Below are positions 22,188-63,969 of a stretch of DNA of 64,000 nt, one piece after another. Made by a program: the position numbers and the translations under genes. How positions within the stretch are numbered: position 1 is the first letter of the stretch; every line of letters begins with the position of its first letter. Under the pieces are notes generated by a model. The model searched no databases and was not told the origin of the DNA. It saw only the letters and a list, made by a program, of their open reading frames with translations. Source of the DNA: Ciceribacter sp. L1K22 (GTDB taxonomy: Bacteria > Pseudomonadota > Alphaproteobacteria > Rhizobiales > Rhizobiaceae); the NCBI RefSeq assembly GCF_017599385.1, contig NZ_JAGFPK010000001.1, positions 3,231,436-3,295,435 on the forward strand, in the 5' to 3' direction.

Positions 22188-23351
22188 TCACTTGGACGAC
22201 AGGTAATCTTCTACCAATTCAACCCAAAACGCCGTGCCTGTTGGCAGAATGTCGTCGTTGAAATCGAACTTCGGATGATGCAGCGGTGGATCGTTTTCCG
22301 TCTTCGCGGTCCCGAGAAAGAAGTAAGTGCCCGGCCGCTCCTGCAGCATGAAAGCGAAATCTTCACTCCCCATGATCGGCTGCGGCATGTCGACGACATG
22401 CTCCCCGCCTGCAAACCGCATCGCCAGTTGACGGACGTAATCGGTCTCCGACTTGTGATTGATCGTCGGCGGATATCCGCGTTCGTAGTCGATTTCCACG
22501 GACACGCCGTAGCTCGCGGCTTGCGCTTCTGCAATGAGGCGGATCCGCCGTTCGAGTTCGTCTCGAACGTTATCGTCCAGCGCACGAATGGTGAGTTTCA
22601 TCTCCGCCCGCTCGGGAATCACGTTGCTGGCGATACCGCTGTTAAAGGCTCCGACCGTGATGACAGCCGACTGAAGCGGATGAATATTCCGAGAGATCAC
22701 AGTCTGTAGCGCCATGATAATGCTGGCGCCGGCCACGATCGGGTCGGCAGCTTCCTGCGGCTCGGCTCCGTGTCCGCCACGACCGACAACGGTGATTTTG
22801 CATTCATCGGCGGACGCCATGATTGGCCCCTCGCGAAACGCGAACTGGCCGAACGGCATGCTGGGATCATTGTGAAGCGCAAAGATCGCGTCGCAGGGAA
22901 ATTTGTTGAAGAGACCGTCATCCATCATGATTCTGGCGCCGCCGAAATTTTCCTCAGCCGGCTGAAAAATCAAATGTACGGTGCCGTCGAAACTTTTGCG
23001 TTCAGCAAGAATTCGTGCAGCACCCAGCAACATTGCGGTGTGACCATCATGTCCGCAGGCATGCATCACGCCCGGATGCGTGCTGGTGTACTCTGCCCCC
23101 GTTTCCTCGAGGATCGGTAGCGCATCGAAGTCCGCCCGGATGCCGACGCTGCGGCGACTCGTGCCGTTTCTCAAGGTTGCAACGACCCCCGTCTTGCCAA
23201 GCCCGCGCGCGACCTCGTATCCCATGGTAGATAGCTGCTCAGCCACGAAGTCGGAAGTCTTGAACTCGGACAATCCAATCTCCGGTATCTGGTGAAGATA
23301 ACGTCGATTTGCGACGATTTCCGGCATATGATTGGAAAACTGGATAGTCAT
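22188..23351 (-). CDS. M20-family amidohydrolase (hippurate/N-acyl-amino-acid hydrolase type)
   Basis: 387-residue metallo-aminoacylase of the M20D group. Metal and catalytic motifs are HACGHDGH (Cys99, His101), QPAEE (130-134), FALHNDP (His159), GSEDFAFM and the C-terminal HHPKFDFND (His358-His359). Relatives cleave hippurate, N-acetyl amino acids or indole-acetyl amino acids. Its ATG directly follows the stop of the upstream ABC permease with no gap, so it is last gene of the importer operon. That suggests the imported compound is an N-acylated or amide-linked amino acid that is split after uptake. No signal peptide: cytoplasmic. The substrate is inferred from context only. Confidence 0.92.
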   Translation of the reverse strand: MTIQFSNHMPEIVANRRYLHQIPEIGLSEFKTSDFVAEQLSTMGYEVARGLGKTGVVATLRNGTSRRSVGIRADFDALPILEETGAEYTSTHPGVMHACGHDGHTAMLLGAARILAERKSFDGTVHLIFQPAEENFGGARIMMDDGLFNKFPCDAIFALHNDPSMPFGQFAFREGPIMASADECKITVVGRGGHGAEPQEAADPIVAGASIIMALQTVISRNIHPLQSAVITVGAFNSGIASNVIPERAEMKLTIRALDDNVRDELERRIRLIAEAQAASYGVSVEIDYERGYPPTINHKSETDYVRQLAMRFAGGEHVVDMPQPIMGSEDFAFMLQERPGTYFFLGTAKTENDPPLHHPKFDFNDDILPTGTAFWVELVEDYLSSK

Positions 23352-24167
23352 TTACACACCACGCGTTGGAACTCGGTTTTCGAAATAGCGGAAAAATGCG
23401 ACGAGTGCACCCGTCAGGCAGAGATAGATCAGCGCCAGAAGAAGAAGCGGTTCGTAGGTTAGAAAGGTCTCCTGCCGCACCTTTGAAATGACGGCATAGA
23501 CGTCAACAACGGTAATGGTTGCAACCAGGGGCGTCGACTTGAGTTGGAGAACTGTCTCCCCGTTGAGGGTCGGAAGGGCTCGATTGATCGCACGCGGCAG
23601 CCATATTCGCCGAAACGTCGTAAACCTACTCATCCCGAAAGCTCGGGCTGCCTCCAGTTCCCCCCTCGGCACTCCGGCGAAGGCACCGCGCATGACCTCT
23701 CCTTCATACGCCGCGAAGGAGAGCGTTAGCGCCGCAAAACCATAAGGCCCGGCCTGCCGCAGATAGGGCCAGAGGAACGACTGCCTGATCTCGGGATATT
23801 GTGCAAAAATGGAGCCGAGACCGTAGTAGAGCAACCACAGCTGCAGCAGCAGCGGGGTGCCCCTGATCAGCGTGCAGAAACCTCTTGCAAGCCAGGCCAG
23901 CGGCCTTGGTCCAGCGACTTGAACCAATCCGATCGGCACCGCAAGAAGAAAGCCTACAAACGCGGTGGAGAAAAGCAGAACGAGCGTTTCCCAGATGCCG
24001 TAAAGGAGGCGCGTCTGGTAACGAGGCAGCCAATCCCACCTCATGAACCATATCGCGCAGAATACGACCAGGGCGAAGAAGGCCATTAATATGATGCGAT
24101 GTGGCTCGAGGAGGCGACGCGCGGGAGGCGAAACATAGGCCGGTGATGTCGTGTTCACATCCGACAT
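23352..24167 (-). CDS. Polar amino-acid ABC transporter permease (HisM-like)
   Basis: 271-residue inner-membrane permease of the His/Glu/Gln/Arg/opine family. About five helices, starting near residue 25; the cytoplasmic coupling segment is EAARAFGMSRFTTFRRIWLPRA, matching the family EAA loop. A TTG at 24185 adds six residues, but ATG 24167 with GGAG ten bases upstream is preferred and sits one base after the stop of the first permease. The gene is followed with no gap by the M20 hydrolase. It should pair with the neighbouring permease as a heterodimer. Confidence 0.92.
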   Translation of the reverse strand: MSDVNTTSPAYVSPPARRLLEPHRIILMAFFALVVFCAIWFMRWDWLPRYQTRLLYGIWETLVLLFSTAFVGFLLAVPIGLVQVAGPRPLAWLARGFCTLIRGTPLLLQLWLLYYGLGSIFAQYPEIRQSFLWPYLRQAGPYGFAALTLSFAAYEGEVMRGAFAGVPRGELEAARAFGMSRFTTFRRIWLPRAINRALPTLNGETVLQLKSTPLVATITVVDVYAVISKVRQETFLTYEPLLLLALIYLCLTGALVAFFRYFENRVPTRGV

Positions 24168-24168
24168 C

Positions 24169-24897
24169 TCAGATCGGCTCCGCAATGCCGCGGCGGGCGC
24201 GGCGTTCTATGATCGAGATCACAACGTTGGAGACAAGCGTGAGCGATAGGTAAAGCACGCCGGCCGCGCAGAAAAACAACATGTACGCCTTCGTGCTGCC
24301 GGCGGCCTGACGCGTAACAAGCGTCAACTCACTAAACCCGACGACCGCCAGAAGGGCCGTGTCCTTCGTTGCGATCAGCCATAGGTTCGCCAGACCCGGA
24401 AGAGCAAATGGCAGCATTGCCGGAAGCGTGATGCGCCGCATGATCTTCCAGGGAGACATACCATAGGCCCGGGCCGCTTCGATTTGTCCGGGTGGAACAG
24501 CTTTAATGGCACCTCTCAGCACCTCTGTGGAATACGCGCCCTGGACGACGCCAATGACAAAAATCCCCGCAGCCAGGCCGCTGATATCGACCATCGGCAA
24601 TCCGAAGAGGGTCAATAACGCGTTCACCGCGTCCGTTCCTGCATAATACAGGAGGAGGATCAGCACGAGCTCTGGTACGGCCCTGATCACGGTTGTGTAA
24701 ACTTCCAGGAGGTCGCGCAGGATCGGCCCACCATAGAGCTTGCCGGACGCCCCCCCGATCCCGATGACGAGACCAAGCCCATACCCACCAATTGCGAGCT
24801 GAAGTGAACTTGCAAAACCGCTCAGAAGGACGCCGCCCCAGCCAGGAGGCGACAAGGCAAGCAGATCGAGATTGAGAAAGCCGGTCTCTGCGGCCAT
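24169..24897 (-). CDS. Polar amino-acid ABC transporter permease (HisQ-like)
   Basis: 242-residue inner-membrane permease (255 if started at ATG 24936). The family EAA loop is EAARAYGMSPWKIMRRITLPAM. Hydrophobic helices begin near GFASSLQLAIGGYGLGLVIG. Neither ATG has a strong ribosome site; GGAT eight bases before 24897 is slightly better and the extra residues upstream look atypical, so I choose 24897 with low certainty. It is the first of two permeases after the binding-protein gene. The pair resembles the arginine, histidine and opine importers of Rhizobiaceae. Confidence 0.9.
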   Translation of the reverse strand: MAAETGFLNLDLLALSPPGWGGVLLSGFASSLQLAIGGYGLGLVIGIGGASGKLYGGPILRDLLEVYTTVIRAVPELVLILLLYYAGTDAVNALLTLFGLPMVDISGLAAGIFVIGVVQGAYSTEVLRGAIKAVPPGQIEAARAYGMSPWKIMRRITLPAMLPFALPGLANLWLIATKDTALLAVVGFSELTLVTRQAAGSTKAYMLFFCAAGVLYLSLTLVSNVVISIIERRARRGIAEPI

Positions 24898-24971
24898 GGG
24901 CACGGATCCACGTTCGCGGGCGAGGCCGGCCCGCATCGCGTTAGGATACGGGCCGAAGCGAGGTCGAAGGC

Positions 24972-25751
24972 TCAGCCGCCGTAGATATCGAAGTCAAAGT
25001 ACTTCTTCGAGAATGTGTCGTATGTGCCGTTTGCGCGGATCGCCTTGATGGCCGCGTTGATCTTGTCTTTCAACTCCGCGTCGCCCTTGCGCACCCCCAC
25101 GCCAACGCCTGCGCCAAGGATGGCCGGATCATCCTTCACGTTCCCTTTGTGCTCACAGCAGGTGCCCGCATCCGACTTGAGGAACGCATCGAGTGCGATG
25201 GCGTCAGCCTGTACCGCATCGATGCGGCCTGCGGCCAAATCCTGGTTCGCCTCATCCTGCGTCTGATATTCCTTGATCTCGGCAGCAGTCGGACCGAAAT
25301 ATTTCTGCGCATAGTCGGCGTGTACGGTCGATACTTGGACGCCAATGATCTTCCCGGCAAGCCCTTCCGGCGTCGCTTCGAACGCCTCTTCCTTGGGTCC
25401 GATAATCCCCGTCGGGGTGTTGTAGTACTTGTCTGAAAAATCGATCGTCTTCAGTCGCTCCTCGGTAATCGACATCGAACCGACGATCATGTCGATCTTG
25501 TTAGACGTCAGCGCCGGGATGATGCCGTCCCAAGCTACGGGTGTGATGACGCACTCGAGTTTTGCCTCGGCGCAGATCGCTTCCATGAACTCGACCTCCC
25601 AGCCGACCCACTTGCCCGCGGCGTCTGGCGACGTGAACGGCGGGTAGGGTTCGGCAGCGAAGCCTACTTTCACCTCAGCGGCAGAGGCCTGCCCGGTAAT
25701 GGCAACGCCGACCATCACCGAGAAGATCGCGATCTTGAGAATGTTTTTCAT
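24972..25751 (-). CDS. Amino-acid ABC transporter substrate-binding protein
   Basis: 259-residue periplasmic solute receptor of family 3. A signal peptide of about 24 residues ends QASA. The mature start EVKVGFAAEPYPPFT and the following GWEVEFMEAICAEAKLECVITPVAWDGIIPAL are the usual ligand-pocket elements of Lys/Arg/Orn/His- and opine-binding proteins. ATG at 25751 has GGGGA before it. The gene is second in the operon after the ATPase. Ligand specificity cannot be read off; an arginine-like or acylated basic amino acid is inferred from the divergent arginine-type genes. Confidence 0.93.
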   Translation of the reverse strand: MKNILKIAIFSVMVGVAITGQASAAEVKVGFAAEPYPPFTSPDAAGKWVGWEVEFMEAICAEAKLECVITPVAWDGIIPALTSNKIDMIVGSMSITEERLKTIDFSDKYYNTPTGIIGPKEEAFEATPEGLAGKIIGVQVSTVHADYAQKYFGPTAAEIKEYQTQDEANQDLAAGRIDAVQADAIALDAFLKSDAGTCCEHKGNVKDDPAILGAGVGVGVRKGDAELKDKINAAIKAIRANGTYDTFSKKYFDFDIYGG

Positions 25752-25793
25752 GTCTTTCCCCTGTTTTTCGTTGTTTATGCCGGGCTTTGCCGG

Positions 25794-26567
25794 CTAGTGA
25801 ATCGAACGGATGAACTTTTTCAAACGCTCGGATTGCGGATCGCCGAACACCTTTGCAGGCGGTCCCTGTTCTTCGATGATGCCGTTGTGCAAAAAGACGA
25901 TATGGGTCGCGACCTCGCGGGCGAATTTCATTTCGTGTGTTACCAGGATCATAGTCCGCTTCTCGCGCGCGAGATCTCCGATGACACTTAGAACCTCTCC
26001 GACGAGTTCCGGGTCGAGTGCGGATGTTGGCTCATCGAAAAGCATGACAAGAGGTTGAACGGCGAGCGCCCGAGCAATGGCGGCACGCTGCTGCTGCCCG
26101 CCGGAAAGAAACGCCGGGTAGGCGTCACGCTTGTCGTACAGCCCGACGCGCCGCAGCAAAGTTTCGGCGATCGTCACCGCCTCGTCTCGTTTCATTCCCA
26201 AGACATGGATCGGGACTTCTATGACGTTCTGCAAAACGGTCATGTGCTGCCAGAGATTGAAGCTCTGGAAAACCATGCCAAGACGACTGCGGATTTTCTG
26301 CACTTGGCGCCGGTCGGCAGGCATCAGACCACCTCGGCCGTCCTTCTTCAGCAAAATCGTCTCGCCGTGCACCGTTACTGAACCGGCCGTAGGCAGTTCC
26401 AGCATGTTGATGCAGCGAAGAAACGTCGACTTTCCGGACCCGGAGCCTCCGATCACCGCGATGACATCGCCTTGACTGGCGGAAAGTGAAACCCCCTTCA
26501 GAACCTCTAGAGGGCCAAAACGCTTAAAGAGGTCGCGCACCTCAATGGCCTGCGCCGTCGTGTCCAT
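25794..26567 (-). CDS. Amino-acid ABC transporter ATP-binding protein
   Basis: 257-residue ATPase of the HisP/GlnQ type. Walker A is GGSGSGKST (40-48), the signature LSGGQQQR (154-161), and Walker B VMLFDEPTSALD (174-185). The H-loop follows (LVTHEMKFA). It energises the two permeases downstream. ATG at 26567 opens the leftward five-gene operon: ATPase, binding protein, two permeases, M20 hydrolase. The 207 bases to the divergent hydrolase gene hold the shared control region. Confidence 0.95.
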   Translation of the reverse strand: MDTTAQAIEVRDLFKRFGPLEVLKGVSLSASQGDVIAVIGGSGSGKSTFLRCINMLELPTAGSVTVHGETILLKKDGRGGLMPADRRQVQKIRSRLGMVFQSFNLWQHMTVLQNVIEVPIHVLGMKRDEAVTIAETLLRRVGLYDKRDAYPAFLSGGQQQRAAIARALAVQPLVMLFDEPTSALDPELVGEVLSVIGDLAREKRTMILVTHEMKFAREVATHIVFLHNGIIEEQGPPAKVFGDPQSERLKKFIRSIH

Positions 26568-26684
26568 TCACACCGCCAATGCCCCGCAACAACGGGGAAG
26601 CTGTTGCAACTGTCCCACCGGCAGTGTCTTCCTGGACTGATGCGGCGCCGGCCGTTCGCTCGATCCTTGAAGGCAGTTTTGCAC

Positions 26685-26716
26685 TTGTGCGGTAATTATT
26701 CAACCGTATAATAACC
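26685..26716 (+). promoter_or_regulatory. Putative promoter with overlapping operator in the divergent region
   Basis: TTGTGC (26685-26690), a 16-base spacer and a perfect TATAAT (26707-26712) form a plausible rightward sigma-70 promoter. The spacer and -10 are covered by an inverted repeat GGTAATTATT-N6-TATAATAACC (26691-26716, eight of ten positions paired). A repressor bound here would block the promoter. The TetR gene two reading frames downstream is the obvious candidate. Confidence 0.5.
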
Positions 26717-26773
26717 GAAGTTCATTGGCGCCTTGAAATCATGACGGCTTGAAGTCTGGAGGGGGATAACATC

Positions 26774-27649
26774 ATGGCGCACGGTTCCCAGGAAATGTCC
26801 GGTAGACTGAGGCGCGTCCTGATGCGGCGTCCCGGACCGAGCCTCCTGACAGCAGACCCTAAAAGGTGGCACTACGGCCCCACCTTCGACGGAGCCAAGG
26901 CAGTAGATCAGTATCGCGCATTCGTAGCGCTCGTCGAACGTAGCGGCACGGAGATCGTGTGGCTGGAGGATAGCGGCGATGGCCTTGCGGATGCAATGTT
27001 CACACATGATCCTTCGCTTGTGACACGACATGGAGCCGTAATCCTGCGAATGGGAAAGCTGCTGCGCTCGGACGAACCCGGCCTGCACGAAAATGCCTAT
27101 CGTAAAGCTGGTATCCCGGTTCTGGGACGGATTGAAGCGCCGGGCACGGTTGAAGGCGGCGACTGCGTCTGGATCGATGAAGAGACACTGGCGATCGGCC
27201 GTGGTGTGCGAAGCAACCAGGCTGGAATTGAGCAACTCGCGGCAATTCTTGCTCCGCACGGAATAAGCGTTGTCGGATTCGATCTGCCGCTTTGGCAGGG
27301 CGAGGAAGCATGCCTTCATCTCATGTCGGTGATAAGTCCGCTGAAGCGGGATCTTGCTCTCGTCCATGCCCCACTTCTGCCCGCAGCCTTCTACTTTCTC
27401 TTGAAGGAGCGCGGAATCGGTTTGGTTGTTGCACCGGAAGACGAGTTTGCGGCTAGCAGCGGCCTTAACCTCAATGTTCTGCCAACAGCACCGGGGGAAT
27501 TGATCATGATCGACGGGTTCCCGGGAACCAAGACCGCTTTGGAAGCCGCTGGCTGCTCTGTCTCGACCTTTCCCGCCGACGCGCTGTGCGTTGCATGCGA
27601 GGGCGGCCCCACTTGCCTGACGCGGCCAATCCTCCGGGATCGGTCATGA
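26774..27649 (+). CDS. Dimethylarginine dimethylaminohydrolase/arginine deiminase-like protein
   Basis: 291-residue member of the guanidino-group-modifying (amidinotransferase/deiminase) fold. Likely catalytic residues are Asp79 in FTHDP, Glu127 in TVEGGD, His182 in CLHLMSVISP and nucleophile Cys281 in CEGGPTCLTRP. Relatives convert methylated arginines to citrulline plus methylamines, or arginine to citrulline plus ammonia. ATG at 26774 has GGAGGGGG upstream. It is first gene of a rightward operon; its TGA overlaps the TetR ATG. Followed by an aminotransferase and a ketoarginine-type decarboxylase, it most likely acts on an arginine derivative; the exact substrate is unknown. Confidence 0.85.
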   Translation: MAHGSQEMSGRLRRVLMRRPGPSLLTADPKRWHYGPTFDGAKAVDQYRAFVALVERSGTEIVWLEDSGDGLADAMFTHDPSLVTRHGAVILRMGKLLRSDEPGLHENAYRKAGIPVLGRIEAPGTVEGGDCVWIDEETLAIGRGVRSNQAGIEQLAAILAPHGISVVGFDLPLWQGEEACLHLMSVISPLKRDLALVHAPLLPAAFYFLLKERGIGLVVAPEDEFAASSGLNLNVLPTAPGELIMIDGFPGTKTALEAAGCSVSTFPADALCVACEGGPTCLTRPILRDRS

Positions 27650-28281
27650 GCAGGCGAAGCTTCCATCGAGCCGGCGAGGGAGAACGGAGACAGGAACTGA
27701 TTACCGCAACGCTCGACTGCGTCGCGGAGTTAGGCCTTCAGGGAGCGACCGTACGCCAGATAGCGGCAAAGGCCGGAGTGACCGGAGGGCTCATCAGGCA
27801 CTACTTTGCCGGCAAGGATGAGATGATGCAGGCCGCCTATGAAGAGCTTATGGCCGGCATGACAGGCGCGGCCATCGCTGCTGCGGACCGGGGCGGCGCA
27901 ACCGCCCGCGAGCGCCTTCGAGACTTTATTGTGGCCAATCTGACGCCACCCGTGACGGATGGGCGCACCCTGTCTCTTTGGGCGTCCTTTATAAGCCATG
28001 TTCGTACTGATCCGACATTCGCCAGAATTCACCGCGAGAGCTACTTGGCTTTCCTGTCGGCGCTGGAACAATTGATTGCCGCATTTCTTCGCGAATGCGA
28101 CCAGCCCGCCGATCCCGTGCGCTGCCGGCAACTAGCCATTGCAATCAACGGCCTGATCGACGGGCTTTGGCTTGAGGGAACGATAGCGGGAGACTTGTTC
28201 ATGGAAACACCCCTCCCCGCCATCGCCCTGAATTCCGTGGAGGCTCTCCTCGGCGGCTTGAGACTGAGCGACCTGGAATAA
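27646..28281 (+). CDS. TetR-family transcriptional regulator
   Basis: 211-residue repressor-type protein. The N-terminal helix-turn-helix lies at about residues 30-55 (GATVRQIAAKAGVTGGLIRHYFAGKDEM), and the C-terminal ligand domain resembles BetI. ATG at 27646 overlaps the stop of the upstream hydrolase gene in an ATGA, so the two are translationally coupled. It probably controls this operon and the divergent ABC operon through the inverted repeat at 26691-26716. The inducer might be the imported compound or a catabolic intermediate; that is inference. Confidence 0.9.
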   Translation: MSRRSFHRAGEGERRQELITATLDCVAELGLQGATVRQIAAKAGVTGGLIRHYFAGKDEMMQAAYEELMAGMTGAAIAAADRGGATARERLRDFIVANLTPPVTDGRTLSLWASFISHVRTDPTFARIHRESYLAFLSALEQLIAAFLRECDQPADPVRCRQLAIAINGLIDGLWLEGTIAGDLFMETPLPAIALNSVEALLGGLRLSDLE

Positions 28282-28293
28282 AGTTGAGAAAAG

Positions 28294-29493
28294 ATGCGCT
28301 ACGCCTCAATCACTGATCGTCTTGCACATCTGGGCTCCGGTAAATGGGCGGTGCATATCAAGGCTCGCCAGATGGCGGCATCTGGACAACCGGTTATCGA
28401 GTTGACGATCGGAGAACCGGACATAGCACCCGACCCGGCGCTTCTGGGCGAGGCGAGCAGGGCAATGCACGCCGGCCGTACGCGATATTCGAATGGCCGC
28501 GGTGAACCCGCCGTTGTCGCCGCACTCACCGAGAAATATCGAAAGCGGCGGCCGGATGTCAGTGAGCGGAATATTCTCTGCTTCCCCGGCACTCAAACGG
28601 CTTTGTTCGCAGTTATGCTGGGGCTGGTAGAAACCGGAGACGACGTAATTGTCGGTGATCCACTCTACGCGACGTATGAAGGCGTCATCGCTGCGACCGG
28701 AGCGAGGATGGCACCGGTACCTCTGCGGCCGGAGAACCGCTTCCATATGAAAGCCGACGATCTGAAAAAAGCAGTAACGGCAAGATCGAGAGCCGTCCTT
28801 CTCAACTCCCCTCACAACCCGACGGGAGCGGTTCTCACACGCGCTGAGATCAAGGCAATCGGCAAGGTCTGCATTGAGCACGATCTGTGGATCGTCTGCG
28901 ACGAGGTTTACGAGGAGCTGATCTTCGACGCACCCTTCGCCTCACCTTTCGATGATCCCGACCTGGCGTCCCGGACGATTGTCGTCTCTTCGATTTCCAA
29001 ATCACATGCCGCACCTGGTTTCCGGTCTGGCTGGGCCGCCGGTCCGGTCGAGTTTTGCGATCGCCTTCTTCCGGTATCGGAAACCATGCTTTTTGGTGTG
29101 CAACCCTTCATAGCCGACATGACTGCCATGGCGGTTTCGGGCTCGTTCGACACTGCCGGCCGGATGCGGGACAACTACCAGCGGAGAGCTAAGCTGGTGG
29201 AGCAGCGATTGAAGGAGCACGGAAGTCTCGTACCTTTGATGCCGGAAGGCGGAATGTTTCTTCTGATTGATGTTTCCGGGACAGGATTGACCGGTGAGGA
29301 GTTCGCTGCGCGCCTTCTCGATGAAAAGCATGTGGCTGTTATGCCGGGTGGCTCGTTTGGAGACCAAGCGCGATCGTTCGTCCGAGTATCGCTGACTGTC
29401 TCGGACGATCTTCTTGAGAAGGCGTCGGCACGAATAGCGGAACTGGGCGATGAATTGGTGGGGCGGGTGCGGACGAAGACATGGGCATCGTAA
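28294..29493 (+). CDS. Class I aminotransferase, arginine:pyruvate transaminase-like
   Basis: 399-residue fold-type I PLP enzyme. Asn175 in NSPHNPTG, Asp203 in VCDEVY, the Schiff-base Lys236 in SSISKSHAAPG and Arg244 are the expected cofactor residues. It resembles aspartate/aromatic aminotransferases, including arginine:pyruvate transaminase (AruH). That role fits because the next gene, overlapping it by 13 bases, is a 2-ketoarginine-decarboxylase-like enzyme. Start ATG 28294 is 12 bases after the TetR stop with a weak GAGAAAAG site. If the call is right, arginine plus pyruvate gives 2-ketoarginine plus alanine. Other substrates cannot be excluded. Confidence 0.88.
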   Translation: MRYASITDRLAHLGSGKWAVHIKARQMAASGQPVIELTIGEPDIAPDPALLGEASRAMHAGRTRYSNGRGEPAVVAALTEKYRKRRPDVSERNILCFPGTQTALFAVMLGLVETGDDVIVGDPLYATYEGVIAATGARMAPVPLRPENRFHMKADDLKKAVTARSRAVLLNSPHNPTGAVLTRAEIKAIGKVCIEHDLWIVCDEVYEELIFDAPFASPFDDPDLASRTIVVSSISKSHAAPGFRSGWAAGPVEFCDRLLPVSETMLFGVQPFIADMTAMAVSGSFDTAGRMRDNYQRRAKLVEQRLKEHGSLVPLMPEGGMFLLIDVSGTGLTGEEFAARLLDEKHVAVMPGGSFGDQARSFVRVSLTVSDDLLEKASARIAELGDELVGRVRTKTWAS

Positions 29494-31091
29494 CAAAGAC
29501 GGTAGGCGAAGCGCTCATCGATATTCTTGAGGCGAACGGGGTCGACGTCGTGTTTGGCATCCCTGGCGTCCACACCGTGGAACTCTATCGCGGCCTTGCA
29601 AATTCCAGAATCCGCCATGTCACACCGCGACACGAACAGGGCGCGGGTTTCATGGCAGACGGATATGCGCGCGTCAGCCGAAAGCCGGGGGTTTGTCTCG
29701 TGATTACCGGCCCCGGCCTGACCAACACGATTACGGCAATGGCGCAGGCCTACCAGGACTCCGTACCGATGCTCGTGATTTCCGGCGTCAATCCGCGTGC
29801 GTCTCTCGGCCACGGCCGTGGCCGGTTACATGAACTACCCGACCAACGTGCGATGATTGCCACACTGGCACTGATGTCGCACACCCTGCTCGAACCCGAG
29901 GATTTGCCTATCGTCATGGAGCGTGCATTCGCAATATTGCGCTCGGGGAGGCCGGGGCCCGTTCATATCGAGATTCCCACCGATGTCATGGCGAAAAAAA
30001 TTTCGATTGGCAAAATCGTATCGCCGGTCGTAGCAGGACCGCGAGCAGAACTTTCCCATCTGCTTGATCTCGCGGAGCGCTGCAAGAGCGCGCGCGCCCC
30101 GGTAATTCTGTGCGGCGGAGGCGCGGTATCCGCAGCACCCGGAATCGAACTGCTTGCGCAGCGACTTGACGCTCCTGTAGTCACGACTGTCAATGCGCGC
30201 GGGATGTTCTCCGGTCATGACTTGTCGGTGCCAGCCAGCCCCAGTCTTAAAGCGGTGCGAAAGCTGATCGCAGCTTCTGATCTGGTGATCGCTCTCGGAA
30301 CCCAGATGGGCCAAACAGACTATGACATGTATGATGACGCAGGCTTTCCAGTCATATCCCAACTAGTGAGGGTTGATATCGATCTTCAGCAATTGGCGAG
30401 GGGACCCGCCGCCTCGCTGTCGCTCCACTCGACCGTCAACAATCTGGTCGATGACCTTCTCTCGTTACTTGAAGGCAATGCCGTCCAGCGCGACGGACGG
30501 CGGCGTGCCGGAGAGGTTACAATCGAGGCGCGCGCTGAAATCGGCGAAAAGCTGGAGCGGCAGGTCACCATTCTGGAAACTATTCGCGACACGCTTTCCA
30601 ATTGCATCATCGTCGGCGACTCTACTCAGCCGGTTTATGCCGGCAACCTCTTTTACGAGGCGGGACGCATACACGGGTGGTTCAATGCCGCCACCGGATA
30701 TGGTGCACTTGGATACGGGCCTCCAGCCGCCATAGGCGCCAGCTTGGCGGAGCCCACAACGCCGATTGTCTGTCTTGTCGGCGACGGGGGATTGCAGTTT
30801 TCTCTAGCAGAGATCGGTTCGGCCAAGGACTGCGGCGCGAACGTCATCTTCCTCGTCTGGAACAATGACGGTTACGGTGAGATCAAAAACTACATGCTTG
30901 ACTGCGGCATCACGCCGGAAGGCGTCACGCCATCCGCACCGGATTTCCAGTTGATCGCGTCCGCTTATGGTCTGGCTGCCGAAAAGTTGAGTCACATCTC
31001 GGAACTACCCGCCGCACTCTTGAGGGCCGAATCCGCCACCGGGCCATCGCTAATAGAGATCCACGAAATTCTCACTGCCGGAGTGTCGTGA
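29481..31091 (+). CDS. aruI: ThDP-dependent 5-guanidino-2-oxopentanoate decarboxylase-like enzyme
   Basis: 536-residue thiamine-diphosphate enzyme of the acetolactate synthase/benzoylformate decarboxylase fold. Catalytic Glu52 lies in TPRHEQGAGFMADGYAR. The ThDP/magnesium motif begins at Gly434-Asp435-Gly-Gly and ends in NNDGYGEI. Domain order is Pyr (1-170), central (190-330), PP (360-530). The best-known match in this setting is AruI, which decarboxylates 2-ketoarginine to 4-guanidinobutyraldehyde in the arginine transaminase pathway. Start ATG 29481 overlaps the aminotransferase end by 13 bases, a tight two-step module. The next enzyme, a guanidinobutyraldehyde dehydrogenase, is not in the window. 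Confidence 0.85.
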   Translation: MGIVTKTVGEALIDILEANGVDVVFGIPGVHTVELYRGLANSRIRHVTPRHEQGAGFMADGYARVSRKPGVCLVITGPGLTNTITAMAQAYQDSVPMLVISGVNPRASLGHGRGRLHELPDQRAMIATLALMSHTLLEPEDLPIVMERAFAILRSGRPGPVHIEIPTDVMAKKISIGKIVSPVVAGPRAELSHLLDLAERCKSARAPVILCGGGAVSAAPGIELLAQRLDAPVVTTVNARGMFSGHDLSVPASPSLKAVRKLIAASDLVIALGTQMGQTDYDMYDDAGFPVISQLVRVDIDLQQLARGPAASLSLHSTVNNLVDDLLSLLEGNAVQRDGRRRAGEVTIEARAEIGEKLERQVTILETIRDTLSNCIIVGDSTQPVYAGNLFYEAGRIHGWFNAATGYGALGYGPPAAIGASLAEPTTPIVCLVGDGGLQFSLAEIGSAKDCGANVIFLVWNNDGYGEIKNYMLDCGITPEGVTPSAPDFQLIASAYGLAAEKLSHISELPAALLRAESATGPSLIEIHEILTAGVS

Positions 31092-31204
31092 CGCGATACG
31101 GCTTATCTGCCGATCGATGGCCAAGCGCTTGCAATTACGATAAGACCGCTGACAAGTCGGCGACTTGTTCCGGCGGAGTGGGATCAGTTGGCGGGAGAGG
31201 GTGA

Positions 31205-31888
31205 ATGGCGGACACACGCCACGGGCGTAAAGCTTCGGCGGCAGCGCCAGAGGCAAAGCGCGCCTCGCTGCAGCAGGACCCGCATGCAATTCGCGATCCC
31301 AAGGAAAACAATCTCGAACTCGCGATCGGCCACGAGGTTCGCTTCTATCGCAAGAAGCTAGGGATAACAGGTGCCGACCTCGCGAATGCCACCGGCATCT
31401 CGCTAGGGATGCTGTCCAAGATTGAAAACGGCAACACGTCCCCTTCGCTGACGACACTGCAATCCCTGGCCAAGGCTCTGGGTGTGCCGCTTAGCGCCTT
31501 CTTCAGGCGCTTCGAGGAGGTAAGAAACGCGGTGTATGTGCGGTCAGGCGAAGGGCTCGAACTAGAACGTCGCGGCACGCGGGCTGGACATCAGTATAAC
31601 CTTCTGGGTCATCTCGATGGTGGTCCTAGCGGGCTTCAAATAGAACCATACCTGATCACATTGACCGCCAAATCAGACGTCTTTCCCACGTTTCAGCACG
31701 AAGGCATGGAGTTTCTCTACATGCTCGAAGGCGAAGTGAAATACCGTCACGCTGACCGGCTATATACCATGCGACCGGGGGATAGCCTTATGTTCGACGC
31801 CGACGCCCCGCATGGACCGGAGGTTCTGGTGAAGTTGCCGATACGTTTCCTCTCCGTGATCTGCTACCAAAGCAGACTGGAAAGCTAG
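31205..31888 (+). CDS. XRE-family regulator with C-terminal cupin
   Basis: 227-residue transcription factor. A helix-turn-helix of the XRE type covers about residues 43-98 (LGITGADLANATGISLGMLSK, then NGNTSPSLTTLQSLAKALGV). A cupin_2 ligand domain covers about 145-220 (EGMEFLYMLEGEVKYRH, PGDSLMFDADAPHGPE). Proteins of this build often control amino-acid or polyamine catabolism. ATG 31205 has GGGAGAGGG before it. It is 113 bases after the decarboxylase gene, so it may be transcribed with it or separately; it likely senses an intermediate of the arginine-derivative pathway. The first 35 residues are low-complexity. Confidence 0.88.
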   Translation: MADTRHGRKASAAAPEAKRASLQQDPHAIRDPKENNLELAIGHEVRFYRKKLGITGADLANATGISLGMLSKIENGNTSPSLTTLQSLAKALGVPLSAFFRRFEEVRNAVYVRSGEGLELERRGTRAGHQYNLLGHLDGGPSGLQIEPYLITLTAKSDVFPTFQHEGMEFLYMLEGEVKYRHADRLYTMRPGDSLMFDADAPHGPEVLVKLPIRFLSVICYQSRLES

Positions 31889-60011: not shown

Positions 60012-60812
60012 TCAGCGGTCCCCGTTGCTCATTGCGCCAAGCAGTTTGGGCAAGTCGCCAAATCTCGCCACTAGGCCAAAGATGACAGCGGCGACCACGA
60101 CGAAGAAAATCGACACCGAAGCCATGACCGGCGTGTAGCCATAGCGCAGCGCGTTGAAGATCTTGATCGGCAAAGTCTCCATCGTGAAGCCGACTGTCAT
60201 GTAGGCGACGATGTATTCATTGAGCGACAATACGAAAGCAAAGGCATAGCCGGAAACAAGGTAGGGCGTGATTAAGGGCAGTATCACCGTCCGAAAGATC
60301 GTTCGATCGTCAGCACCCATGACGGATGCCGCTTCCACCAGTGAGCGATCAATCGCCGAAAAACCCAATGACAGCGTCACCAGCGGCAGCGTCACGAAGA
60401 AGATTGCGTGACTGATGACCGCCGTCCAGGGCTGACCGTAAGCTCCGGTCGCAGCCCAGAAAGTGAGCAAGCCAAGCGCAGTTATCACCGGCGGCAGCGT
60501 GAAAGGAGCGATGCCGAGCAGCTGGAATATCTGTGCCCAGGGAGCAATTCGACGCCAAAGGAACCAGGAAAGCGGCAACGCGATCGCGACCGCAAGCGCG
60601 GCCGACAGCAACGCCAGTGTCAAAGATGAAAACAACGCAGATCGCCAACCAGCATCGGTGAAGATCGCGCCGTACCAAGATAGCGAAAAGCCCTGCGGCG
60701 GAAAGTTCAGGCTTTGCTTGGCATTTACCGACACCCCAGCGACGACAACGATGGGCGCTGCGAGGAAGAAGCCGATCAGAGTGAAATAGAGGCGTGTCAG
60801 GACCGTATTCAT
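60012..60812 (-). CDS. Polyamine-type ABC transporter permease (PotC-like)
   Basis: 266-residue inner-membrane permease, six hydrophobic helices. The EAA loop is EAASVMGADDRTIFRTVILPLI. It belongs to the spermidine/putrescine branch (binding-protein-dependent permease, PotC side). ATG 60812 overlaps the stop of the upstream permease by four bases. It is the last gene of the leftward operon and faces dgoA. Related iron, thiamine or other small cation transporters share this build, so the substrate is provisional. Confidence 0.9.
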   Translation of the reverse strand: MNTVLTRLYFTLIGFFLAAPIVVVAGVSVNAKQSLNFPPQGFSLSWYGAIFTDAGWRSALFSSLTLALLSAALAVAIALPLSWFLWRRIAPWAQIFQLLGIAPFTLPPVITALGLLTFWAATGAYGQPWTAVISHAIFFVTLPLVTLSLGFSAIDRSLVEAASVMGADDRTIFRTVILPLITPYLVSGYAFAFVLSLNEYIVAYMTVGFTMETLPIKIFNALRYGYTPVMASVSIFFVVVAAVIFGLVARFGDLPKLLGAMSNGDR

Positions 60813-61663
60813 GCTGCCTCTCCCTTGCGACCGATGAGCAACGTCAGTGCGACCATGCCAAGCGTGACCAGCACGAGGAATACGGCCATGGCGGCGGCGA
60901 ACGGCATGTTGGACTGGTAGATCGCCTGATCGGTGATGAGCACCGACAGCGTCCAGTGCGAGGGGCGACCGAGGATCTGCGGCAGCAGATAAGAGCCGAG
61001 CGCGAAGATGAAGACCATGATCAGCGTCGCGATCAGCGTATCGCGCAGCGCCGGCACGACCACAGTAAAGAAGGCGCGGAGCGGCGAGGCTCCGAGCGTT
61101 CGCGCGGCTTCAGTGAGCGTCGGGTCGAGCCGGACGATGGCGGGATAGAGCACCAGCACCGTATAGGGCAGCGCCTGATAGGTCATGCCCGTCAGCACCG
61201 CGCCGAAATTCGGCATCAGCGCCACCGGGCTCCCCATCAAGCCGACCATGACCAGGAGATTGGTGATACCGGCCGTGCGCGAAAACAGCGTCGACCAGGC
61301 AAAGCCGATAATGACTTCCGACAGAGACAGGACAGAGAGCAAGGCCACCAGCCAGATAACCTGCGCCTTGCGGGACATGCGCGCGAGCAGATAGGTGAAA
61401 GGCAGCGCCAAAGCCACACAGACCACGGCAACAGCGATCGCCAGCGCCAGCGAAAAGCCGAGCACGCCGCCGAAGAAGAAGGACAGGAAGCGGGCGTAAT
61501 TGTCGAAGACGAAATCCGGCGAATAGAAACCGGTCGGGTCTCGCTTGAAGAAGGAGACGGCGATCATCGTCGCGAAGGGCACGACGAAGAACAGGATCAG
61601 CATGCCCGCGGGAAAGGCGAGCGGCGCATAGTCGAGCGTGGCCTTGGGCGGTTCGCGTCTCAT
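60809..61663 (-). CDS. Polyamine-type ABC transporter permease (PotB-like)
   Basis: 284-residue inner-membrane permease with six hydrophobic helices and the coupling loop EAARTLGASPLRAFFTVVVPAL. It is the partner of the PotC-like permease. ATG 61663 overlaps the ATPase stop by four bases (ATGA) and its own stop overlaps the next permease start, so the three genes are translated in a coupled fashion. GC content appears slightly higher than in neighbouring operons by eye. Confidence 0.92.
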   Translation of the reverse strand: MRREPPKATLDYAPLAFPAGMLILFFVVPFATMIAVSFFKRDPTGFYSPDFVFDNYARFLSFFFGGVLGFSLALAIAVAVVCVALALPFTYLLARMSRKAQVIWLVALLSVLSLSEVIIGFAWSTLFSRTAGITNLLVMVGLMGSPVALMPNFGAVLTGMTYQALPYTVLVLYPAIVRLDPTLTEAARTLGASPLRAFFTVVVPALRDTLIATLIMVFIFALGSYLLPQILGRPSHWTLSVLITDQAIYQSNMPFAAAMAVFLVLVTLGMVALTLLIGRKGEAA

Positions 61664-62694
61664 GCCGACAGCACCACGGCGGTTTCAGGGTCGATGACGA
61701 TGCCGACATCCTGACCGACAGTGACGACCGGCCGTTCGCGCGGAGTCGAGACCGCGACGACTTCGGTGCCAGACACATCAAGGAAAGTTTCAATGGTGCC
61801 GCCGAGGTCGCGGATGAAGGTGACCTTGCCGGTAATGCGGCCTTCGCCTGGGGCTGCTAGCTTCACGTCTTCTGGCCGAACAGAGAGGCTCGTCTGCCCC
61901 GAACTTGATGGAGCTGAAATGCCCGCGACGCTATGGCCGAGGACAAGCGCCGTTCCGCCCTGTGCGGTCAGCGGTAGGAGATTGGTCGAGCCGATGAAGT
62001 CGGCAACGAAGCGATCGGCCGGCTTGCGATAGATCTCGATCGGGCTCGCCGCCTGGCGGATTTTGCCGCCGCTCATGACGACAACCGTATCGGCCATGGT
62101 CATCGCCTCGCGCTGGTCATGGGTGACGACGATCGTGGTGATGCCGAGCTGCTGCTGCAGCTTGCGAAGTTCCACCTGCATCGCCTCGCGCAGCTTGGCG
62201 TCGAGCGCCGACAGCGGCTCGTCGAGCAGGAAGAGTTTCGGCGAAATCGCAAGAGCCCGGGCAATCGCAACGCGCTGCCGCTGGCCGCCGGAGAGCTTGT
62301 GCACCGGTCGGTCTGCATAGCCGGTGAGGTGGATCATCGCCAGCAGCTCGTCGACCCGCTTCACCTGCTCCTCGCGGCCGATGCCACGGATGCGCAGGGG
62401 ATAGGCGATGTTTTCGCCGACAGTCAGATGCGGGAAGAGTGCCAGCGACTGGAAGACCATGCCAAGATCCCGCTTGTGCGTCGGAACCTGCGTGATGTCA
62501 CGGTCGTCGAGCACCACCGCACCCTCAGTCGGACTTTCGAGACCGGCAATCATCCGGAGCAGCGTGGTCTTCCCGCAGCCGGAGGGGCCGAGCAAACAAA
62601 CGAAAGTCCCGTGCGGCACGGAGAGCTGCACATGGTCAACCGCCGTGAAAGGACCGAACTGTTTGGTTACGGAATTGAGGACGAGGCCAGACAT
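61660..62694 (-). CDS. Polyamine-type ABC transporter ATP-binding protein (PotA-like)
   Basis: 344-residue ATPase. Walker A is GPSGCGKTT (36-44), signature LSGGQRQRVAIARAL, Walker B LFLLDEPLSALD, then a C-terminal TOBE domain (about 260-340, SVRPEDVKL). This build is typical of PotA and related iron/spermidine ATPases. ATG 62694 has GGAG five bases before it; ATG 62697 is one codon earlier. It follows the binding-protein gene after a 186-base gap that contains a palindromic repeat. Confidence 0.93.
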   Translation of the reverse strand: MSGLVLNSVTKQFGPFTAVDHVQLSVPHGTFVCLLGPSGCGKTTLLRMIAGLESPTEGAVVLDDRDITQVPTHKRDLGMVFQSLALFPHLTVGENIAYPLRIRGIGREEQVKRVDELLAMIHLTGYADRPVHKLSGGQRQRVAIARALAISPKLFLLDEPLSALDAKLREAMQVELRKLQQQLGITTIVVTHDQREAMTMADTVVVMSGGKIRQAASPIEIYRKPADRFVADFIGSTNLLPLTAQGGTALVLGHSVAGISAPSSSGQTSLSVRPEDVKLAAPGEGRITGKVTFIRDLGGTIETFLDVSGTEVVAVSTPRERPVVTVGQDVGIVIDPETAVVLSA

Positions 62695-62832
62695 CATGTC
62701 TCCGAAGTCAAGTGGTCAGGGCCCGATGCCCTTTTGGCGCGGCGATAGCATCTCACGCTCGTATTGTATTGCAAACGCTACGGTCCCGGATGGAGCATCA
62801 CGCGTTGGTGGTTGGGTTTTCCCTCACCCTGC

Positions 62833-62856
62833 CCTCTCCCCGGCAGCGGGGAGAGG
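62833..62856. repeat. Palindromic intergenic repeat (CCTCTCCCCG element)
   Basis: A 10-bp perfect stem CCTCTCCCCG/CGGGGAGAGG (62833-62842 with 62847-62856), loop GCAG, preceded by CCCTCACCCTG. This is the type of short dispersed intergenic palindrome common in proteobacterial genomes. It lies between the binding-protein and ATPase genes of one operon and may stabilise the upstream mRNA or attenuate downstream genes. Confidence 0.6.
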
Positions 62857-62880
62857 AGACGTTGGCGCTGTCTGGTCCAA

Positions 62881-63969
62881 TCAACCGACGATCAGTTCCG
62901 TCCACTTCTGATTCAGCCAGTCCGACTTGGTCTGATAGAGGTCGTAGCGGGGCGTGATCGGCTCGATGTCAGAGGAAACGGCAGCAAATTCGTCCGCTGT
63001 CAGGTCGAGCAGTTCACGCTTGACCGTCGGGGCCGTGCCGACCTTGCGCGACAGCGTCGCCTGAATGGACGGCTGGCACATGTAGTCGATGAAGATGTGT
63101 GCTTCTTCGGTCTTGGCGGACGCGCGCGACAAAGCCCAGCAACCCGAATCCTGGATGCCGCCTTCCTGTGGGAAGGTCGAGCGAACCGGCTGGCCGTCGG
63201 CAGCGGCAAGACCTGTGACGTCGTGATAGTACTGGCCCATCGGGATTTCGCCCGACTTCAGCGCCTGTTCGAACTGGGCTTCGTCACGATACCATAGGCG
63301 CACATTCGGCTTCACCTCGGCAAGCTTTTCGAAGACCTTCAGGATTCCTTCCTCGGTGTCGAGCGCATTGGTGCCGCCGAAATGGGTCTTGGCGGTCACT
63401 TCCAGAAGGAACGAGTTCGACACCAGAGCCAGCAGCCCGAGCTTGTCGGCATTGGCCGGATCCCAGAGCGCGTTCCAAGAGGTGGGCGCTTCCTTGTAGA
63501 CATCGGTATTGGTGACGAGGGTGATGTACCAAGCAACGGCACCAACACCTGCGACACGACCGTCCGGGTACTTGTTGACGAAACGATCGATCAGGCCCGA
63601 GGCATTCTTGATCTTGGCCATATCGATAGGAGCCCAGAGCTCGGTGGCCTGCCCCTTCAGCATGGCGACCTGCGACATCATCGAGAGGTCGGCCGGCGCC
63701 TGGCCGGCCTTTGCGGCCTGCTCAAGCTGGACAAGCCAAGCTTCACCGGTCGGCTCGGCGATCGACTCGACGGCGATGCCGGTCGCCTTGGTGAAATCCG
63801 GAAAGATATTCGTGTCGAACGAATCCTTAAAGTAACCCCCATAGACGCCGACCTTGATCGAACGGTCTTGCGCGCGAAGGATCGACGGCATCGAGAGCGC
63901 CCCAACGGCCGCAAGCGAACCGGCGAGCAAGCCACGGCGGCTAGTGGAAGTGGAAAGAATGTCTTTCAT
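62881..63969 (-). CDS. Polyamine-type ABC transporter substrate-binding protein (PotD-like)
   Basis: 362-residue periplasmic solute receptor of family 8. The N-terminus has a twin-arginine signal (S-R11-R12-G-L-L, then a hydrophobic stretch ending LRA at residue 33), so it should be exported folded by Tat. The body (KVGVYGGYFKDSFDTNIFPDFTKATGI and later GDGRV/WYITLVTN-like pocket elements) matches spermidine/putrescine-binding relatives. ATG 63969 has GAGGGA eight bases before; the frame upstream is not needed. It opens the leftward operon; its promoter is at or beyond the window edge. Confidence 0.92.
   Translation of the reverse strand: MKDILSTSTSRRGLLAGSLAAVGALSMPSILRAQDRSIKVGVYGGYFKDSFDTNIFPDFTKATGIAVESIAEPTGEAWLVQLEQAAKAGQAPADLSMMSQVAMLKGQATELWAPIDMAKIKNASGLIDRFVNKYPDGRVAGVGAVAWYITLVTNTDVYKEAPTSWNALWDPANADKLGLLALVSNSFLLEVTAKTHFGGTNALDTEEGILKVFEKLAEVKPNVRLWYRDEAQFEQALKSGEIPMGQYYHDVTGLAAADGQPVRSTFPQEGGIQDSGCWALSRASAKTEEAHIFIDYMCQPSIQATLSRKVGTAPTVKRELLDLTADEFAAVSSDIEPITPRYDLYQTKSDWLNQKWTELIVG

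Follow-up and report, generated by a model that had tools for sequence, protein, structure and literature searches.

The closest described systems are arginine transaminase loci. In Pseudomonas aeruginosa, AruH and AruI form the arginine transaminase pathway, in which a transaminase is followed by a thiamine diphosphate (ThDP)-dependent decarboxylase. In Sinorhizobium meliloti, AspC (SMc02262) shows transaminase activity on arginine, agmatine, ornithine and putrescine, with pyruvate as the acceptor, IlvB1 (SMc02263), downstream of AspC, prefers 5-amino-2-oxopentanoate sevenfold, and the arginine network matters in root nodules (PMC7268258). Just before this pair stand the locus tags of a lysine/arginine/ornithine (LAO)-type importer, SMc02257-60, of which SMc02257/58/60 are listed with amino-acid and oligopeptide transporters (PMC3596328) and SMc02259 is given as a lysine-arginine-ornithine-binding protein (PMC4941405). 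We analysed a locus at positions 22188-31888 of a 64,000-nucleotide stretch of Ciceribacter sp. L1K22 (contig NZ_JAGFPK010000001.1; hereafter the window), which also encodes an enzyme resembling dimethylarginine dimethylaminohydrolase (DDAH), here called type A. The locus is of a known kind, common in soil and root-nodule bacteria, and its new part is a DDAH-like family that appears to replace DDAH. We consider it probable that this is a version of the rhizobial arginine/ornithine transaminase locus that the DDAH-like enzyme opens to Nω-substituted arginines. A further proposal, which we hold to be evenly balanced, is that type A is an unrecognised second bacterial DDAH family. Many Rhizobiaceae and some Xanthobacteraceae would then use it in place of canonical DDAH and, as a part of the arginine transaminase locus, for nutrition on Nω-methylarginine (or another Nω-substituted arginine).

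With S. meliloti the window shares an aminotransferase gene followed by a decarboxylase gene, with an LAO-type importer just before; with P. aeruginosa AruH/AruI it shares the transaminase and the ThDP decarboxylase, to which it adds its own importer, a TetR gene, an M20 gene and the DDAH-like gene. The ThDP 2-oxo acid decarboxylase (29481-31091, plus strand), which is AruI/IlvB1-like, scores 747 bits with NF005712, the subfamily model for '5-guanidino-2-oxopentanoate decarboxylase' (cut-off 500), in agreement with the original prediction of an AruH/AruI-type degradation locus. The class I aminotransferase (28294-29493, plus strand; PF00155, 206 bits; pyridoxal phosphate lysine K236 by motif) is AruH/AspC-like by gene context, as no NCBIfam model reaches its cut-off among the matches listed. 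The nearest of these models, GntC (NF041364), the cyclodehydratase of the guanitoxin pathway, was rejected at 240 bits against a cut-off of 415; capreomycidine synthase is also among the listed models, and the relative at locus L226 likewise has GntC first.

Two loci, L226 and L227, from genomes that are Sinorhizobium-like by their layout, carry M20, importer, TetR, aminotransferase and decarboxylase genes in the window's order, and the L226 decarboxylase passes NF005712; from gene order and locus tags we infer that this is the S. meliloti SMc02257-63 locus. In contrast to the window, no type A gene lies between importer and TetR in these two loci, and canonical-type DDAH is found elsewhere in their genomes. 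The original prediction knew of no described operon with this gene set. This needs revision for the enzyme pair, as AspC with downstream IlvB1 is published (PMC7268258). A literature search that left most subscription journals outside its range found neither that version of the AspC/IlvB1 locus nor any paper joining '5-guanidino-2-oxopentanoate decarboxylase' with 'dimethylarginine dimethylaminohydrolase'.

Type A (26774-27649, plus strand) is a DDAH-like guanidino hydrolase of the guanidino-group modifying enzyme (GME) superfamily (PF02274, 66 bits; gathering score 22.8). The structure closest to its AlphaFold (AF2) model (pLDDT 86.7, pTM 0.87) according to Foldseek is P. aeruginosa DDAH (3rhy_A; TM 0.75 by query, 0.87 by target). 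The two enzymes are alike in fold, triad, and carboxylate and amine contacts (1h70, 3rhy), although they share only 28% identity and type A has M184 for Lys164 and H78 for Glu65. As described in the text of PMC11659421, the active site has a Cys/His/Glu triad, with two Args holding the carboxylate, one Asp the amine and one Asp the guanidinium. The position at which DDAHs carry a Lys, which leaves room for the dimethylamino group, is taken by a second Asp in arginine deiminases (ADIs). By alignment, D60, D66, R85, E114, R132, H162 and C249 of P. aeruginosa DDAH correspond to D73, D79, R98, E127, R146, H182 and C281 of type A. We take these P. aeruginosa residue numbers to be those that fill the triad, carboxylate, amine and guanidinium roles. 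D73, D79, R98, E127, R146 and H182 are invariant in 104/104 type A sequences and C281 is present in 103. The exception, at L221 (8397-9272), is a 57% type A relative beside an aminotransferase alone, in which the catalytic Cys position is lost and Gly replaces Met184.

Type A thus has the triad and the alpha-carboxylate- and alpha-amine-binding residues of a DDAH and, judged by these residues, should bind an arginine-like alpha-amino acid. Two residues past the catalytic His, where ADIs have their second guanidinium-binding Asp, type A has M184 (Met in 102/104 sequences); because this Asp is missing, a substituted guanidine should be tolerated. The enzyme had been predicted to be DDAH/deiminase-like, and its conserved DDAH residues agree with that assignment and suit an Nω-substituted arginine.

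The distribution of type A among relatives suggests what it may do. We searched 247 genomes of the family for the aminotransferase (E <= 1e-90) and read all 67 loci found, scoring type A at a tblastn identity of at least 45% and canonical-type DDAH at 38%; four loci (L242, L282, L283 and L284) are shorter than 14 kb, so that a gene missing there may reflect a contig end. We use 'canonical-type' for DDAHs because they keep the DDAH Lys and Glu65 (8/8 proteins checked) and share 34-39% identity with P. aeruginosa DDAH, compared with 28% and Met/His for the window enzyme. Importer, TetR and aminotransferase occur together in 47 of the 67 loci, and among these clusters 30 contain type A, 4 contain canonical-type DDAH instead, 13 contain neither and none contains both (Fisher 0.013). 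The four in-cluster DDAHs come from three genera and occupy two positions: in L232, L223 and L273 they follow M20 or the final permease, and in L237 the decarboxylase. When whole genomes were searched for canonical-type DDAH, using the 47 cluster genomes and G588 (a cluster without TetR), it was present in 0/30 genomes with in-cluster type A and in 14/18 without (Fisher 6e-9, kinship ignored). Across all 247 genomes, with both enzymes counted at E <= 1e-50, type A occurs in 75 and canonical-type DDAH in 34, and they are never found together, against 10.3 co-occurrences expected (Fisher 3e-6, kinship ignored). This mutual exclusion argues that type A stands in for DDAH, and functional replacement, with type A doing the work of DDAH, is its most likely reading.

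Several observations weigh against this reading. Correction for kinship on the aminotransferase tree (46/48 clusters) leaves 3 to 5 informative independent pairs, all of which point in the exclusive direction, with a sign-test p of 0.0625-0.25. Four of the 48 cluster genomes have neither type A nor canonical-type DDAH. The 'canonical' reference proteins were themselves classified by similarity: the DDAHs of L232, L223 and L237 match the dimethylargininase model NF045658 over its full length, yet at 196-211 bits they stay below its cut-off of 450. Type A stays far under the cut-offs of the three dimethylargininase models that it matches, with 75/450 bits for NF045658, 86/340 for NF045660 and 21/300 for NF045659, and the DDAH Lys is replaced by M184. 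In a structural comparison with VIA-align the top-ranked protein is an ADI (Z 30.7), with DDAH 3rhy in sixth place (Z 29.4; NnhA 29.2); since Foldseek puts DDAH first, fold does not decide between ADI and DDAH. The gene can also be lost. Among 12 clusters without type A, two retain remnants of the 5' end of its gene. The remnant in L250, whose congener L249 has the gene, spans 46 bases (E 7e-9) and that in L247 spans 57 (E 1.5e-5); no comparably clear remnant was seen in the other ten. These scars mark losses of type A in L250 and L247, and type A is therefore dispensable. In the close genera g3 and g115, all 7 loci read have type A, importer and decarboxylase without the aminotransferase, and in L047 (9592-12508) and L048 (7452-10369) type A relatives of 56-57% identity stand in a three-gene row with an aldehyde dehydrogenase and a 206-codon gene. 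The latter, which has no NCBIfam match at E <= 1e-30 in L047, presumably encodes an isochorismatase-like protein.

Type A might instead be an ADI in all but name, converting imported arginine to citrulline in place of ArcA. A search of the genome for ArcA at E <= 1e-50 gives no match, and its only PF02274 match is type A; both results would suit such a role, as would the VIA-align ranking and the C-terminal motif EGGPTC, which we take to be ADI-like. Nevertheless, the ADI model TIGR01078 gives only 65 bits against a cut-off of 489, the second guanidinium Asp is missing as described above, and the exclusion seen for type A concerns canonical-type DDAH and not ArcA. ArcA (E <= 1e-50) is present in 10/33 genomes with type A, counting G491, whose type A and aminotransferase genes lie apart, and in 5/21 without (p 0.76), the matches in 10 of these 15 ArcA genomes being only those somewhat below the curated cut-off. 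Given this lack of association, replacement of ArcA is rejected or at least weakened, and we regard it as unlikely. We find it a little harder still to believe that type A fills the role of the ureohydrolase SpeB2/GbuA by stripping guanidine nitrogen from 2-ketoarginine or 4-guanidinobutyrate. Type A does lie in the same gene row as the enzymes expected to produce these two compounds, and its relatives in L047 and L048 sit beside an aldehyde dehydrogenase, whose nearest model in L047 is a succinate-semialdehyde dehydrogenase, under its cut-off. However, 104/104 sequences keep the alpha-amine Asp and the two alpha-carboxylate Args, which fits an alpha-amino acid; the genome already has four ureohydrolases; and the exclusion with canonical-type DDAH would be left unexplained.

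The least probable of the readings weighed is a linear pathway, in which an N-acyl or N-methyl arginine is imported and trimmed by M20 and DDAH, after which the product (for DDAH, citrulline) passes straight to the aminotransferase and decarboxylase. M20 does travel with the importer arm, being found there in 53/80 type A loci, and it recurs beside a similar importer and canonical-type DDAH in the second operons L297 and L302 discussed below. Its absence from 27/80 loci and that of type A from 17/47 clusters argue against a fixed route, as does the binding protein (24972-25751, minus strand), which is of the lysine/arginine/ornithine/histidine type (PF00497 over its threshold; TIGR01096 226 bits, below the cut-off of 256) and retains clamping residues suited to a free amino acid. 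Its R99, D183, S92 and Y36, invariant in 112/112 sequences, correspond to R77, D161, S70 and Y14 of LAO, of which we take R77 and D161 to clamp the free alpha-carboxylate and alpha-amine; N-acylated ligands should therefore be disfavoured. The best matching PDB sequences are 2m8c (cationic amino acid binding protein) and 1hpb (histidine-binding protein), followed by LAO. Citrulline was in the AspC assay mix, yet it is not among the substrates named in the text of PMC7268258. Neither N-acyl import nor direct transamination of citrulline is supported, and of the original prediction, which had an N-acylated or N-methylated arginine-like compound imported, trimmed, and its product transaminated and decarboxylated, the arginine-type import locus is supported, whereas the acylated ligand and the direct succession of steps are not. 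Compared with these three readings, functional replacement of DDAH by type A remains the one that we favour.

The linkage of these genes was examined in a second sample, in which named genomes were searched with a type A alignment and the best 80 of 284 matches were taken as loci, mostly Rhizobiaceae or Rhizobiales by record title, with several Ancylobacter and one other Xanthobacteraceae. Counting genes as present at an identity of at least 35%, 80/80 loci have the binding protein, ATPase and aminotransferase no more than 10 kb away, which upholds the prediction that the two arms belong together. TetR is present in 79, both permeases in 78, the decarboxylase in 61, M20 in 53 and the XRE-cupin gene in 4. 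M20 and decarboxylase occur together in 51 loci and are both missing from 17; 10 have the decarboxylase only and 2 M20 only. These counts score as absent the permeases of L120 and L135, both on short pieces, and the decarboxylases of L114 and L120, which stop too close to the aminotransferase for that gene to show. In the 47 aminotransferase-based clusters the decarboxylase is found in 37 and M20 in 28. The core is therefore importer, TetR and aminotransferase, usually with the decarboxylase and often with M20; the deiminase is accessory, and M20 and XRE-cupin are optional. The predicted fixed operon of seven families finds no support in the counts for type A (30/47), M20 (53/80) and XRE-cupin (4/80), the last of which also speaks against a general place for XRE-cupin in the module. 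An aminotransferase tree of 104 clusters, in which type A is over-represented and L120 is left out, needs at least 8 changes of the type A label, and well-supported branches force 5 of these.

Some clusters that lack a member carry other genes. Near the aminotransferase of the decarboxylase-less clusters L086 (12798-15660), L087 and L089 are an L-piperidine-6-carboxylate dehydrogenase and/or an AmaA-like pipecolate oxidase (825 bits, cut-off 730, and 463 bits, cut-off 600, respectively, in L086; judged from N-termini only in L087 and L089), and these neighbours hint at a possible lysine link. In L044 (4869-5870) and L252 (3674-4663), the gene that follows the permeases, where M20 would otherwise lie, encodes a dehydrogenase; judged from the N-terminus, so does that of L040. 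The nearest model of the L044 protein is L-sulfolactate dehydrogenase (146 bits, cut-off 500), and we assume that the L044 and L252 proteins belong to the Ldh_2 family.

In the window itself, all ten genes were verified in place, in accordance with the gene list and order of the original prediction, and form two divergent arms 206 bases apart. The minus-strand arm consists of the HisP-type ABC ATPase (25794-26567; PF00005; HisP 345 bits, under the cut-off of 466), the LAO/HisJ-type binding protein, a HisQ-type permease (24169-24936; PF00528; HisQ 181 bits, under the cut-off of 319), a HisM/ArtM-type permease (23352-24185; PF00528; HisM 132 and ArtM 127 bits, both under their cut-offs) whose start is uncertain, the gene caller favouring 24086, and an M20D amidohydrolase (22188-23351; TIGR01891 389 bits, cut-off 154; PF01546), an optional member of this arm. 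The gap between the second permease and the M20 gene is 0 bases, as had been described. The plus-strand arm runs from type A through a TetR-family regulator with a BetI-type C-terminal domain (27646-28281; PF00440, PF13977), the aminotransferase and the decarboxylase to an XRE-cupin regulator (31205-31888; PF01381 and PF07883; PuuR 55 bits, below the cut-off of 211). Overlapping genes had been reported in the plus arm; overlap is confirmed for type A and TetR (4 bases, with the TetR start at ATG 27646 and not the listed GTG at 27586) and for aminotransferase and decarboxylase (13 bases), whereas TetR and aminotransferase lie 12 bases apart without overlap. The XRE-cupin gene follows the decarboxylase at a spacing of 113 bases and is confined to the nearest relatives, and its membership of the module is doubtful.

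The gap between the arms contains a promoter/operator-like element, GCACTTGTn5AATTATTCAACCGTATAATA (26681-26713, plus strand), that is conserved across divergent gaps; its form among relatives is GCACTTGTn5AATTATTCAAGCGTATAATA, the window having ACCG for AGCG. Within it, a -10 TATAAT (26707-26712) and a candidate -35 TTGTGC (26685-26690) are separated by a 16-base spacer, the -10 points at the enzyme arm, in which type A is the first gene behind the element, and a TTATT...AATAA dyad lies over the -10. Counting one fixed core pattern in gaps that measure 80-500 bases and are flanked by genes in opposite orientation, we found a CGTATAATA-type core in 77/111, comprising 70/99 gaps with type A and 7/12 without. 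At up to 3 mismatches the 20-base core has a single site in its own genome, and the reversed-pattern control has 0. The simplest reading is a putative TetR operator that serves this single locus.

DDAH also occurs with an importer in a second context. In a Sinorhizobium-like genome (G600, contig C2), L297 (5572-13324) holds in one run an ornithine cyclodeaminase (553 bits, cut-off 350), CtlX (NF046062, 415 bits, cut-off 334), a canonical-type DDAH, an LAO-type binding protein, two permeases, an ATPase and M20, with an Lrp-type regulator gene divergent to the run. L298 has CtlX, DDAH and importer, and L302 has DDAH, importer and M20; no such full operon was seen within 4.5 kb on each side in L296, L299, L300, L301 or L303, the last of which shows part of one (importer parts in L296-L303 were partly judged by eye). 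This recurrence of DDAH with an importer, twice with M20, supports a nutritional role. CtlX, which falls in PF19420, a family outside our search of the Ciceribacter genome, is, in the text of PMC9007349, a putative citrullinase; compared with type A it is another GME-type protein, one proposed to act on citrulline. The CtlX operons presented there are also among the closest known systems, and in L297 CtlX and ornithine cyclodeaminase share a run with canonical-type DDAH, importer and M20. No aminotransferase or ThDP enzyme was seen in the L297 run, which may be a complete methylarginine-to-proline operon running via citrulline, ornithine and proline. The gene run would thus offer citrulline a route without transamination. 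Back in the window, about 30 kb from the type A locus, positions 60012-63969 hold by eye an ABC transporter (two permeases, an ATPase and a secreted binding protein) that adjoins an agmatinase-type ureohydrolase just past the window end (G000, contig C1, 3295528-3296331), and together they are possibly another guanidino-compound locus.

From what was observed here, namely gene content, conservation, active-site residues, exclusion with canonical-type DDAH and the shared operator-like element, we infer the following substrates for this organism, in a scheme that gives M20 no step. The LAO-type ABC importer would take up arginine-like amino acids with a free alpha-carboxylate and alpha-amine. 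The aminotransferase would move the alpha-amino group onto a keto acid, as S. meliloti AspC does with pyruvate, and the ThDP enzyme would decarboxylate the resulting 2-oxo acid to guanidino- or aminobutanal, which general aldehyde dehydrogenases and ureohydrolases could finish. Through type A the locus would also accept Nω-substituted arginines, with mono- and dimethylarginine the most likely ones: attack of Cys281 on the guanidinium carbon would release the substituted amine and then citrulline, the latter probably to re-enter via arginine or ornithine (through ArgG/ArgH, or a citrullinase where present) and not by direct transamination. One local TetR acting on one operator in the divergent gap probably governs the enzyme arm.

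To our knowledge, little is known about the purpose of bacterial DDAH. Two DDAH-like enzymes that are never together in 247 genomes, although both can sit in the same arginine locus, tie DDAH chemistry to nutrient uptake and put a name to a new enzyme family. They may also add a methylarginine branch to the arginine network described in PMC7268258. If type A is indeed a second DDAH family within the transaminase locus, this would give bacterial DDAH a catabolic purpose.

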